In this document: piece by piece, positions 2,370 to 6,647 of the stretch | Numbering within the stretch: position 1 is the stretch's first letter | Layout of the letters: every line of letters starts with the position of its first letter | Source: Pseudomonadota bacterium | Lineage (GTDB): Bacteria > Pseudomonadota > Gammaproteobacteria > Burkholderiales > Burkholderiaceae_C | Direction: 5' to 3' | Assembly: GCA_021805825.1 (NCBI GenBank) | Contig: JAJZEC010000001.1 | Span: forward strand, 62,001-126,000 | Length of the DNA stretch: 64,000 nt | Made by a program: the position numbers and the translations under genes | The notes under the pieces: generated by a model | The model's input: the letters and a program-made list of their open reading frames with translations, nothing else | The model's database searches: none | What the model was told of the DNA's origin: nothing

Positions 2370-2954
2370 TCAGATGTTTTCCCGCATGCGCCACCAGGGG
2401 TCGGCCGATATCGGCTGTGCCCCGGCCAGGCGCTCGAGCAGGCGTGCGGGATGGTCGTCGACCTGCAGCAGGCCGAGGATGTCGGGCGCGACCAGGCCCT
2501 GTTCGTGGCTCTGCGCCAGAAAGTCGAGCAGGCCGTCGTAGTAGCCGGCGCAGTTGAGAAGCCCGACCGGCTTGTTGTGGTAGCCGAGCTGGCGCCAGGT
2601 CCAGATCTCGAACAACTCCTCCAGGGTGCCGAGCCCCCCGGGCAGGGCGACGAAGGCCTCGGCGTAGTCGGCCATCATCTTCTTGCGCTGGTGCATGGTC
2701 TGCACCACGTGCAGTTCGCTCAGCCCCTGGTGCCCGATTTCGCGTTGCATCAGCAGCTCGGTCGTCACGCCGACGACCCGCGCTCCGCCGGCCAGCGCGG
2801 CCTCGGCCGCGATCTGCATCAAGCCCACGCTTCCCCCGCCGTACACCATGGTCATCCCGCGCGCCGCGATGGCCTGCCCGAGATCCGCCGCGGCCTGCGC
2901 GTAGCGCGCATCGATGCCGACGCGGGAACCACAGTAGACACAAAGGGAATGCAT
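2370..2954 (-). CDS. LOG family protein (TIGR00730; cytokinin riboside 5'-monophosphate phosphoribohydrolase-like)
   Basis: MHSLCVYCGSRVGIDARYAQAA...VYGGGSVGLMQIAAEAAL...ALPGGLGTLEELFEIWTWRQLG. Confidence 0.9.
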   Translation of the reverse strand: MHSLCVYCGSRVGIDARYAQAAADLGQAIAARGMTMVYGGGSVGLMQIAAEAALAGGARVVGVTTELLMQREIGHQGLSELHVVQTMHQRKKMMADYAEAFVALPGGLGTLEELFEIWTWRQLGYHNKPVGLLNCAGYYDGLLDFLAQSHEQGLVAPDILGLLQVDDHPARLLERLAGAQPISADPWWRMRENI

Positions 2955-2991: not shown

Positions 2992-3372
2992 TCACAGCCA
3001 GCGCGGCAGCAGCAGCAGCGTCCAGGTCAGGGCGCACAGCGCCAAGGTTAGCAGCACCGCGGCGCTTCCCAGATCCTTCGCCCGGCGGCTGAGTTCGTGG
3101 GGCTCCAGGGAAATGCGGTCGACCGCATCCTCCAGCGCCGTGTTGAGCAGTTCCACGATGGGCACCAGCAGGGTCGATCCGGCGAGGAGTGCGCGCTGCG
3201 TGCCGTCGCGGCCCAGCCACAGGCCAAGCGGCAGCAGCACGGCCACGAGCAGCGTCTCCTGGCGCAGCGCCGATTCGCTGCTCCATGCCCCGCGCAGGCC
3301 GCGCAGCGAGTTGCGCAGTGCGCCGACGGCGCGCGTGGCGCCCGAGGTCTTGTACGGGGAGGCGCTGGCCAA
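2992..3372 (-). CDS. dgkA: Diacylglycerol kinase (prokaryotic DgkA); start uncertain (TTG 3372 suggested)
   Basis: SPYKTSGATRAVGALRNSLRGLRGAWSSESALRQE...VPIVELLNTALEDAVDRISLEPHELSRRAKDLGSAAV. Confidence 0.88.
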   Translation of the reverse strand: MASASPYKTSGATRAVGALRNSLRGLRGAWSSESALRQETLLVAVLLPLGLWLGRDGTQRALLAGSTLLVPIVELLNTALEDAVDRISLEPHELSRRAKDLGSAAVLLTLALCALTWTLLLLPRWL

Positions 3373-3382
3373 GACGCCGCCT

Positions 3383-4417
3383 TCAGTGCACGCCGATCGC
3401 GTCGGCGTCCGACCCCGGCTCGACAGCCAGACGCAGTTGCTGCAGGAATTGTTCGGTGGCCCGAGCCCAGCTGAACTGGCGGGCATGGGCCACTGCGTTG
3501 TGGCGGGGGATGCGCAGCGCTTCCAGGCAGGCCGTGCGCAGGTCTTCGTGCAGGGCCCCGGCCGGTGCGTCGCCGATGACGTCCAGCGGGCCGGTCACCG
3601 GATAGGCGGCCACCGGGCAGCCGCAGGCCAGCGCCTCCACCAGCACCAGGCCGAAGGTGTCGGTGCGACTGGGGAACACGAACACATCGGCGCCGGAATA
3701 GACCTCGGCCAGGCGTTGCTGGCTGAGCACGCCGAGGAAGCGCACCTGCGGGTACTCGCGACGGATGCGCGGCAGTTCGGGGCCCTCGCCGACCACCCAC
3801 TTGGTTCCCGGCAGATCCAGGCGCAGGAACGCGTCGATGTTCTTTTCCACCGCGACGCGGCCCACGTACAGGAACACCGGCGGCTCGCCTTCCAGGCGCT
3901 GGCCCGCATGCGGGTGGAACACCGAGGTATCGACGCCCCGCGACCAGATGGCCAGGTTGCGCAGTCCCTGGGCCTGCAGGTCGTCGCGCACGACCCGCGT
4001 GGGCACGAGGGTGACGCGCGCGGCGCCGTGGAACCAGCGCAGGTACCCGTAGGTCCACGACAGCGGCACTCCAAAGCGCGCCTGCACGTACTCGGGGAAA
4101 CGCGTGTGGTAGGCGCTGGTCAGCGGCAGCCCGAGGCGCCTGGCGGCGCGGCGCGCGGCCAGGCCCAGTGGGCCCTCGGTGGCCAGGTGCACCACATCCG
4201 GGTCGAAGTCGCGCATGCGCGACAGGATCGCAGGATAGGAACGCCAGCTCAGGCGGATCTCCGGGTAGGTCGGGCAGGGCAGGGTGCGGAATCCCCCGGG
4301 CTCGACCACCTCGACGTCCTCGCCGCGCGCGCGCAGTTCGTCGATGGTGGTCTTCAGCGTGCGCACGACGCCGTTGACTTGCGGGCTCCAGGCGTCGGTG
4401 GCGATCAGGATGCGCAT
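3383..4417 (-). CDS. GT4-family glycosyltransferase, Agt-like (diacylglycerol glycosyltransferase type)
   Basis: MRILIATDAWSPQVNGVVRTLKTTIDEL...SRGVDTSVFHPHAG...YVGRVAVEKNIDAFL...FPSRTDTFGLVLVEALACGCPVAAYPVTGPLDVI. Confidence 0.88.
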   Translation of the reverse strand: MRILIATDAWSPQVNGVVRTLKTTIDELRARGEDVEVVEPGGFRTLPCPTYPEIRLSWRSYPAILSRMRDFDPDVVHLATEGPLGLAARRAARRLGLPLTSAYHTRFPEYVQARFGVPLSWTYGYLRWFHGAARVTLVPTRVVRDDLQAQGLRNLAIWSRGVDTSVFHPHAGQRLEGEPPVFLYVGRVAVEKNIDAFLRLDLPGTKWVVGEGPELPRIRREYPQVRFLGVLSQQRLAEVYSGADVFVFPSRTDTFGLVLVEALACGCPVAAYPVTGPLDVIGDAPAGALHEDLRTACLEALRIPRHNAVAHARQFSWARATEQFLQQLRLAVEPGSDADAIGVH

Positions 4418-5337
4418 GGCACGGCCTGCGGATGCCACTCGGCCAGCACCTGGGGGGCATGCGCCGATGGCGCCCACATCAGAAGCTGCAGGGCGCCATT
4501 GTCGAGCTCCGCGACGGCGGTCAGGCTCTCCACCCAGTCGCCGCAGTTGGCGTACAGGGTGGATCCGATCGGGCGCAGTTCGGCGCGGTGGATATGGCCG
4601 CAGACGACGCCCTGGCAGCCCCGTCGCGTCGCCTCCTCGGCCAGCAGCTGCTCGAAGTTCGAGATGTAGCTGACCGCGTTCTTCACCTTGCCCTTCAGGT
4701 ACTGCGACAGCGACCAGTAGGAAAAGCCCATGCGGTGCCGCGCATGGTTCAGCCAGCGGTTGAGCTTCAGGCTGAACAGGTACAGCGCATCGCCCAGGTG
4801 GGCCAGCCACTTGGCATGCATCACCACGCCGTCGAACCAGTCGCCATGCACGACCCACAGGCGCAAGCCCGAGGCGCTCAGGTGCACGGCATCGCTGGCG
4901 ACCTCGATGCCACCGAACTGCAGCCCGGCATAGTGCCTGGCGAATTCGTCGTGGTTGCCCGGTACGAACACGACGCGGGTTCCCTTGCGCGCCTTGCGCA
5001 GCAGCTTCTGCACCACATCGTTGTGCGCCTGCGGCCAGTACCAGCCCTTGCGCAGCTGCCAGCCGTCGATGATGTCCCCGACCAGGTAGATGGTGGTCGC
5101 GTGGCAATGCCGCAACAGTTCGAGCAAAGCCTCGGCCTTGCAGTCGCGCGTGCCCAGGTGGATGTCCGACAGCCACAGGGTGCGGTAGTTGTGCGGGTGG
5201 TGCTCATCGCCGCCGTCGTCCACCACGCCGGCGCCGGCCAGGCGCGTCGCCATCGCGGCCTGCGCCTGGGCAGCCTGGGCAAGCACCCGTTCCTGGCCGG
5301 AGCGGCGCAGCGAGCGGGGGAAGGTTGCAGACCACAT
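4405..5337 (-). CDS. Metallophosphoesterase, COG2908/PlcP-like (annotated elsewhere as UDP-2,3-diacylglucosamine diphosphatase-like); start uncertain
   Basis: YRTLWLSDIHLGTRDCKAEALLELLRH...LVGDIIDGWQLRKGWYWPQAHNDVVQKLLRKARKGTRVVFVPGNHDEF...VHGDWFDGVVMHAKW...VVCGHIHRAELRPIGSTLYANCGDWVESLTAV. Confidence 0.88.
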   Translation of the reverse strand: MWSATFPRSLRRSGQERVLAQAAQAQAAMATRLAGAGVVDDGGDEHHPHNYRTLWLSDIHLGTRDCKAEALLELLRHCHATTIYLVGDIIDGWQLRKGWYWPQAHNDVVQKLLRKARKGTRVVFVPGNHDEFARHYAGLQFGGIEVASDAVHLSASGLRLWVVHGDWFDGVVMHAKWLAHLGDALYLFSLKLNRWLNHARHRMGFSYWSLSQYLKGKVKNAVSYISNFEQLLAEEATRRGCQGVVCGHIHRAELRPIGSTLYANCGDWVESLTAVAELDNGALQLLMWAPSAHAPQVLAEWHPQAVPCAS

Positions 5338-5361: not shown

Positions 5362-5401
5362 GTGACGCCGGCATGACATCCATGTGGCAGTCGCGTGACA
5401 G
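5362..5401 (-). promoter_or_regulatory. Candidate Pho box: four half-repeats at 11-bp spacing
   Basis: Minus strand 5'-CTGTCAC GCGA CTGCCAC ATGG ATGTCAT GCCG GCGTCAC-3'; half-sites begin (plus coordinates) at 5362, 5373, 5384 and 5395, exactly 11 bp apart; directly upstream of the PlcP-like gene. Confidence 0.72.
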
Positions 5402-5436: not shown

Positions 5437-6222
5437 TCAGTGGACTGTCGTCGGGGAAGCTGCTGCCGATGCGGAAGGTACGGCAGGTACGGCAGGTACG
5501 GCAGGCGCGGCAGGCGCGGCAGGCGCGGCAGGCGTGGCAGGCGTGGCAGGCGTGGCAGGCGTGGCAGGCGTGGCAGGCGTGGCAGGCGTGGCAGGCGTGG
5601 CAGGCGTGGCAGGCGTGGCAGGTCTGGGGGCCGAAGCGGCGGCAGCGTGCCCCGGCGGAGCCGGGTTCGGCATGGTCACGGGGGCTGTTCCTGCGGCAGG
5701 ATGGCGGGCACCGAATTGCACGACATGCGGAGGGCGCGGCGGCTGGTGGGCCTGGCGCTCGAGCGCGCGCCGCTGCTGCGGGCTGAGCTTCTGGTAGCTC
5801 TCCCACGCCCGGCGGCGGCTTTGCAGCGGTGCGCGGCCGGTGGCAAGGAAATTCTCGCGGGCCAGGCGGCGCTGCCGCGGGCTCATGTGTGCCCAGGCCA
5901 CCATGCGGCGCTGCAGGATCTTGCGCTGTGCCGGGCTCATCAGCGGATAGCGCGTGGCGATGTTCAGCCACTTGCGGCGGCGCATCTCGGAAAAGCCGTG
6001 CCATTGGGCGTGCAGCGGCGCCAGCGCCTGGCGCTGCATCGGGCTCAGGCGGCTCCAGTCGCTGCGGCTGGCGGCGATCGCTGGCGGCGCGGCCAGCAAC
6101 AGGGCGCAGCACAGCATGCACAGGGCGCATGCCGCCCGGCGGGCCACGCGAATCGCGCGCGATCCCGCGGATGGGTGCACGGGCGCTCGGGATCGGCTCG
6201 GCGAGAACAGCCCCGGCATCAC
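5437..6222 (-). CDS. DUF3106-domain exported protein with C-terminal Pro/Ala/Thr tandem-repeat region
   Basis: MPGLFSPSRS... then hydrophobic signal ACALCMLCCALLLAAPPAIAA, WSRLSPMQRQALAPLHAQWHGFSEMRRRKWLNIA, LSPQQRRALE; (ATP)n(AAP)n(AVP)n tail. Confidence 0.78.
   Translation of the reverse strand: MMPGLFSPSRSRAPVHPSAGSRAIRVARRAACALCMLCCALLLAAPPAIAASRSDWSRLSPMQRQALAPLHAQWHGFSEMRRRKWLNIATRYPLMSPAQRKILQRRMVAWAHMSPRQRRLARENFLATGRAPLQSRRRAWESYQKLSPQQRRALERQAHQPPRPPHVVQFGARHPAAGTAPVTMPNPAPPGHAAAASAPRPATPATPATPATPATPATPATPATPATPATPAAPAAPAAPAVPAVPAVPSASAAASPTTVH
5473..5625. repeat. 9-bp tandem repeat, 17 units (ggcaggcgt and variants)
   Basis: Read by eye: 1x ggaaggtac, 2x ggcaggtac, 3x ggcaggcgc, 10x ggcaggcgt, 1x ggcaggtct; in frame with the DUF3106 gene. 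Confidence 0.95.
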
Positions 6223-6647
6223 GCTCCCTGCCGCAGGTAGTCGCGGAATCCCGGATCCGTGTAGGCTTGTGGCGGGAGGTCGTCCAGCAGCAGCGCGGTG
6301 TCGATGTCGGCGATGCGGTGCACAAAACGCTCCTGCTGGTAGTGTTGCAGCGCAAGCAATCCGAGCCACAGCAACGGCAGCGCCAGCGCCGCGGCCAGGC
6401 GCGCCTTCCAGTTCCCGCTGGCTCCCCGGCGCGCTCCGAGCACGGCCTGGTTGCCCAGGCGCACCCAGGCAGGCGCATCCTCGGCGCGCTTGCGGCGCGC
6501 GACGGCCTGCGCCCGGATCCGCCCCAGCGATGCGGCCACCTCGGGTGCCAGCTGCTCGCTGCCTTGCGTCAGCCCCGCCGCGACCCCGTAGCCGAAGCGT
6601 GCTCGCGCGGCCTCGAGCCGCGCTGCAGATTCGTTATTCGTTCTCAT
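6219..6647 (-). CDS. DUF3619 family protein, single predicted TM segment
   Basis: MRTNNESAARLEAARARFGYGVAAGLTQGSEQLAPEVAASLGRIRAQAVARRK...ARLAAALALPLLWLGLLALQHYQQ; between sigma factor and DUF3106 genes. Confidence 0.75.
   Translation of the reverse strand: MRTNNESAARLEAARARFGYGVAAGLTQGSEQLAPEVAASLGRIRAQAVARRKRAEDAPAWVRLGNQAVLGARRGASGNWKARLAAALALPLLWLGLLALQHYQQERFVHRIADIDTALLLDDLPPQAYTDPGFRDYLRQGA

Follow-up and report, generated by a model that had tools for sequence, protein, structure and literature searches.

Membrane remodelling by PlcP and Agt is an established pathway (PMC8528852, PMC9239053, PMC4796936). In Pseudomonas aeruginosa, PlcP and Agt1 have been tested experimentally, and the products of the gene pair make glycolipids at low phosphate (PMC8528852). 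In Pseudomonas putida BIRD-1, one report counts DagK, along with PlcP, among the lipid-remodelling proteins that respond to phosphate and describes it as PHO-dependent (PMC5082522). PlcP–Agt remodelling is known from alpha- and gammaproteobacteria; here we describe it as a unit that carries a Pho box, occurs across Burkholderiales and contains a built-in kinase.

The window, a stretch of 64,000 nucleotides, carries three consecutive genes on the minus strand, whose existence, position and order are as an earlier note had claimed from the letters alone and are borne out by open reading frames and Pfam matches. The first, plcP (4405..5337), encodes a predicted intracellular PlcP-type phospholipase (calcineurin-like metallophosphoesterase; Pfam Metallophos, 48 bits). 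It is followed by agt (3383..4417), for a GT4 diacylglycerol glycosyltransferase of the Agt1 clade (Glyco_transf_4, 92 bits; Glycos_transf_1, 73 bits), and by dgkA (2992..3372), for an E. coli-type integral-membrane diacylglycerol kinase (DAGK_prokar, 104 bits). plcP and agt overlap by 13 bp, and the probable start of dgkA, a TTG at 3372, lies about 10 bp past the agt stop; spacing and conservation both support dgkA as a probable member of the operon, as had been proposed. Next on the minus strand is a LOG-family gene (2370..2954; TIGR00730, 203 bits), which starts 37 bp past the dgkA stop, with glnB and nadE beyond it on the opposite strand. This gene adjoins dgkA in the window's genus, a TetR-like gene intervenes in Burkholderia and Cupriavidus, and a terminator scan of the region gave two terminator-like matches, both within genes. 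The LOG gene is a plausible co-transcribed passenger, outside the lipid pathway. Beside the operon, a DUF3106 gene (5437-6369) contains a long in-frame tandem repeat of GGCAGGCGT units (near 5480-5620) that encodes a Pro-Ala-Thr-rich C-terminus.

Judging from these genes and their relatives, we consider it likely that the trio is a PhoB-controlled operon for membrane lipid remodelling, with DgkA as its overflow valve or return path. When phosphate is scarce, PhoB would bind a tandem Pho box and turn the operon on. PlcP would then strip the phosphorylated headgroup from membrane phospholipids, leaving diacylglycerol, to which Agt would add sugar from a UDP-sugar, giving phosphorus-free glycolipids; both reactions, and the binding of PhoB, are predicted from characterised homologues. 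DgkA, made from the same transcript, would convert diacylglycerol not taken by Agt to phosphatidic acid for new phospholipid synthesis, and would so act on diacylglycerol both as overflow valve and as return path. It is reasonable to infer such a branch point between glycolipid and phospholipid.

In favour of this operon are a gene order and identity like those of the P. aeruginosa pair, a separate LpxH, the Pho box, the presence of phoB, an intact DgkA and the recurrence of the trio. Against it, DgkA spends ATP and returns phosphate to lipid, which is paradoxical under phosphate starvation, and the trio could persist by shared descent, not function. The paradox would be resolved if DgkA acted as an overflow valve, if it supplied a route from phosphatidylethanolamine to phosphatidylglycerol, or if it allowed fast recovery on the return of phosphate. 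A more ambitious proposal, which we regard as doubtful, is that PhoB drives the trio so that diacylglycerol would be split between glycolipids and a headgroup-swapping loop (phosphatidylethanolamine to diacylglycerol to phosphatidic acid, and on to phosphatidylglycerol and cardiolipin), tuning membrane charge and phosphorus and permitting quick restoration, and that this is widespread in Burkholderiales, Burkholderia included.

The kinase itself appears sound. Against the E. coli DgkA structure, the window DgkA scores 103 bits. None of its catalytic residues (R9, E28, E34, E69, N72, E76, K94 and D95) has been lost, and the other triplet DgkAs retain them wherever their sequences span these positions. 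From its family and residues, the enzyme is probably functional.

The arrangement recurs well beyond the window. Within the window's genus, plcP-agt-dgkA was found at 29 of 32 loci (some from one genome; the rest limited by contig ends or short flanks), indicating that it is not a product of chance, with an agt-dgkA spacing of -7 to +59 bp. In 120 Burkholderiales genomes we found 42 plcP genes of the window type: in 29 of the 42, agt lay no more than 1.5 kb away on the same strand, and eight had agt and dgkA in the same order, these falling in five families including the window's. Altogether the trio was seen in at least four Burkholderiales families besides the window's and in SAR116, its carriers among named genomes being Burkholderia, Paraburkholderia, Caballeronia, Cupriavidus, Polynucleobacter and SAR116 alphaproteobacteria. 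Among named loci with a plcP-agt pair and enough downstream sequence, dgkA came next in 21 of 51, and pairs without an adjacent dgkA are at least as common as the trio. Burkholderia and its relatives commonly carry the trio, which makes it a less unusual arrangement than the earlier note had implied. A DgkA tree, built on few columns, requires a minimum of five changes of the trio label. The DgkA of the SAR116 trio (L219, L220, L221, L223) groups with the kinases of Polynucleobacter and other betaproteobacterial trios, hinting that the whole trio may have moved between classes.

Recurrence of this kind also fits an explanation that overlaps with the operon we favour and that we hold to be possible but not probable: plcP-agt would be the phosphate-starvation unit, and dgkA a housekeeping kinase that merely shares its transcript and recycles diacylglycerol from phosphoethanolamine transfer to periplasmic glucan or lipid A. 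As a housekeeping role would have it, the genome yielded no E. coli-type dgkA besides that of the window, its other match being a divergent gene by a polyketide synthase and an alpha-oxoamine synthase. The wider gene order around the trio is alike in Burkholderia and Cupriavidus, which fits inherited synteny, and stand-alone dgkA genes mostly lack a Pho box (one of 20 had such a site upstream), suggesting that phosphate control of DgkA is no general need. The gap between agt and dgkA is roomy enough for a separate promoter in some relatives; in the window, however, its roughly 10 bp leave little promoter room. Also against a mere passenger, dgkA adjoins 20 of 48 genes of GT_B, a distinct glycolipid-type group of GT4 enzymes with about 40% identity to Agt, and in family f21 a paralogous cluster, plcP-GT4-dgkA-GT4, has a Pho box of its own, which together suggest a repeated functional association. 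GT_B-dgkA pairs without plcP occur in many Burkholderiales (L130-L149), and two of these loci (L131 and L136) have a Pho box in the interval that separates dgkA from the GT4 gene. The divergent DgkA-like kinase gene noted above (contig C29, L036:6676-7047) directly follows the polyketide-synthase-like gene and the alpha-oxoamine synthase, a neighbourhood that suggests an unusual pathway for amino-lipids or sphingolipid-like lipids, served by a dedicated lipid kinase.

Phosphate control of the operon would act through a tandem Pho box on the minus strand (5362..5401), four 7-bp repeats at 11-bp spacing identified by a fixed-consensus scan (CTGTCAY every 11 bp). The box goes unmentioned in the earlier note and is our strongest new evidence. 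Its sequence is CTGTCAC-GCGA-CTGCCAC-ATGG-ATGTCAT-GCCG-GCGTCAC, with repeats exactly 11 bp apart, and about 25 bp separate its end from the downstream ATG of plcP (5337). For two, three and four repeats alike it was the top-scoring site on either strand of the 64-kb window, and in the 3.35 Mb genome it was one of three sites with at most one mismatch to CTGTCAYN4CTGTCAY; the other two precede, as judged by eye, a regulator-like gene and a gene for an EAL-domain protein. Allowing two mismatches gave 21 sites against 13 for a reversed control pattern, so the weaker matches carry little information. Because pstS, which has a weaker box, escaped the genome-wide search, the list of sites is not a regulon. 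The regulator is present in the genome: PhoB matched at 321.6 bits, and adjacent open frames read as phoR, phoU and pst genes. By analogy with characterised systems, we predict that PhoB binds the plcP Pho box and induces the operon at low phosphate.

Across relatives, a Pho-like site (shuffle P ≤ 0.05, with shuffles that preserved base composition only) lay upstream of 70% of 142 plcP relatives and of plcP in 45 of 50 triplet loci, which are not phylogenetically independent. Control regions gave such sites at agt in none of 104, at triplet dgkA in two of 55 and at the LOG gene in one of 21; most control genes fell at 0-5%, and the sigE control region reached 22%. Against this background we judge it improbable that the operon's glycolipids serve another purpose, such as acid or metal envelope stress, with the Pho box a minor input. 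Some plcP relatives have no clear Pho box, and the closest named relative of the window plcP is on a Thiomonas metagenome-assembled contig (83%), which makes the host a Thiomonas-like member of Burkholderiales, Thiomonas being a genus from acidic, metal-rich waters; yet this Pho box outscores every other site in the window, and most relatives have one as well. A second PlcP-type gene in the same genome (contig C50, L035:2706-3686; 49% identical) has no adjacent agt, and genes nearby are similar to those for E1 subunits of acetoin or pyruvate dehydrogenase. A scan of its upstream region found no Pho box, and PlcP duty may therefore be shared between the two genes. On a plasmid of Mitsuaria sp. 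7 (L107:5908-8974), a plcP without agt lies directly upstream of the polyphosphate kinase gene ppk1, with a Ppx gene beyond.

The remodelling operon further depends on the first two genes being what their names say. The window PlcP is 57% identical to P. aeruginosa PlcP and 53% to S. meliloti PlcP, and retains the metal-site motifs SDIHLG, GDIIDGW, GNHDE, HGDWFD and GHIH; in the alignment the residues of the two-metal calcineurin-like site (SD-H-LG, GDI-D, GNHD, HGD and GHIH) are invariant. A PDB sequence search with PlcP returned no match. In the PlcP tree, both characterised PlcPs fall in the family of the window protein and LpxH, the genome's own included, lies far outside, with modest inner support. 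The P. aeruginosa sequence came from plasmid CP075839.1 (L106). A chromosomal block captured by this plasmid includes, in order, azoR3, the phosphoesterase, the glycosyltransferase and cyaB; judging by this order and the flanking genes, we infer that the pair is PA3219-PA3218. In the S. meliloti record the phosphoesterase, which we take to be SMc00171, has an AHL synthase gene and a LuxR gene as neighbours. The two reference PlcP sequences are 46.6% identical, matching the published 46% (PMC8528852) and supporting both assignments.

Over 326 amino acids, the window GT4 shares 52% identity with P. aeruginosa Agt1. In a GT4 tree with Agt1 as the characterised Agt, the two share one strongly supported 37-row clade (SH-aLRT 99), apart from the other sampled GT4 enzymes, with GT_B as a separate clade. 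The first two genes, which the note had said resemble PlcP and Agt, are on this sequence evidence PlcP and Agt, with the order of the P. aeruginosa pair. From characterised homologues, the window PlcP is predicted to cleave membrane phospholipid as a phospholipase C, and the window Agt to transfer a sugar such as glucose or glucuronate from a UDP-sugar to diacylglycerol.

The earlier note had also foreseen that generic annotation would name the phosphoesterase as LpxH-like: the P. aeruginosa and S. meliloti records both read 'UDP-2,3-diacylglucosamine diphosphatase', and the PlcP family often carries this LpxH enzyme name in public records. That label and a weak profile match (28.9 bits) are what speak for an LpxH-type UDP-2,3-diacylglucosamine hydrolase of lipid A synthesis beside an unrelated GT4 envelope sugar transferase, a reading effectively refuted by a score far below the LpxH cut-off (190.35), by the true LpxH encoded as a separate gene on contig C11 (195.6 bits), by 53-57% identity to two characterised PlcPs and by the adjoining Agt1-type gene. 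LpxH identity was accordingly rejected for the window phosphoesterase.

With PlcP and Agt so identified, a remodelling operon that includes DgkA raises a testable question. A kinase on the same transcript would undo the first step of the pathway, and the trio could show how diacylglycerol is handled while phospholipids are shed. Its carriers include workable genera such as Cupriavidus.

Compared with described systems, the window shares something with each. E. coli DgkA belongs to the same family and has identical catalytic residues; it recycles other diacylglycerol, and to our knowledge E. coli has no plcP-agt. S. meliloti PlcP (SMc00171) is a phospholipase, 53% identical to the window protein, but unlike in the window its gene has no adjacent agt or dgkA. 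Methylosinus trichosporium has a plcP-agt operon for phosphate-limited glycolipids, as proposed here, but the paper mentions no kinase (PMC9239053); in Methylocystis, a close relative, we found a plcP-agt pair in the window's PlcP and Agt families. For DagK of P. putida BIRD-1, the relevant passages of the report describe no operon with plcP-agt and do not state whether the protein is of DgkA or YegS/DagK type (PMC5082522). In our search of the open-access literature, neither a plcP-agt operon with dgkA in third place nor the unit in Burkholderiales was described, an absence that is weak evidence. The closest parallel is P. aeruginosa plcP-agt1 (PA3219-PA3218, PMC8528852), which resembles the window in gene order, gene overlap, Pho box and sequence (57% and 52% identity) but has no dgkA attached, cyaB being the next gene. 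Beside it, what we found in the window is an established pathway joined by one further gene that is itself widespread there.
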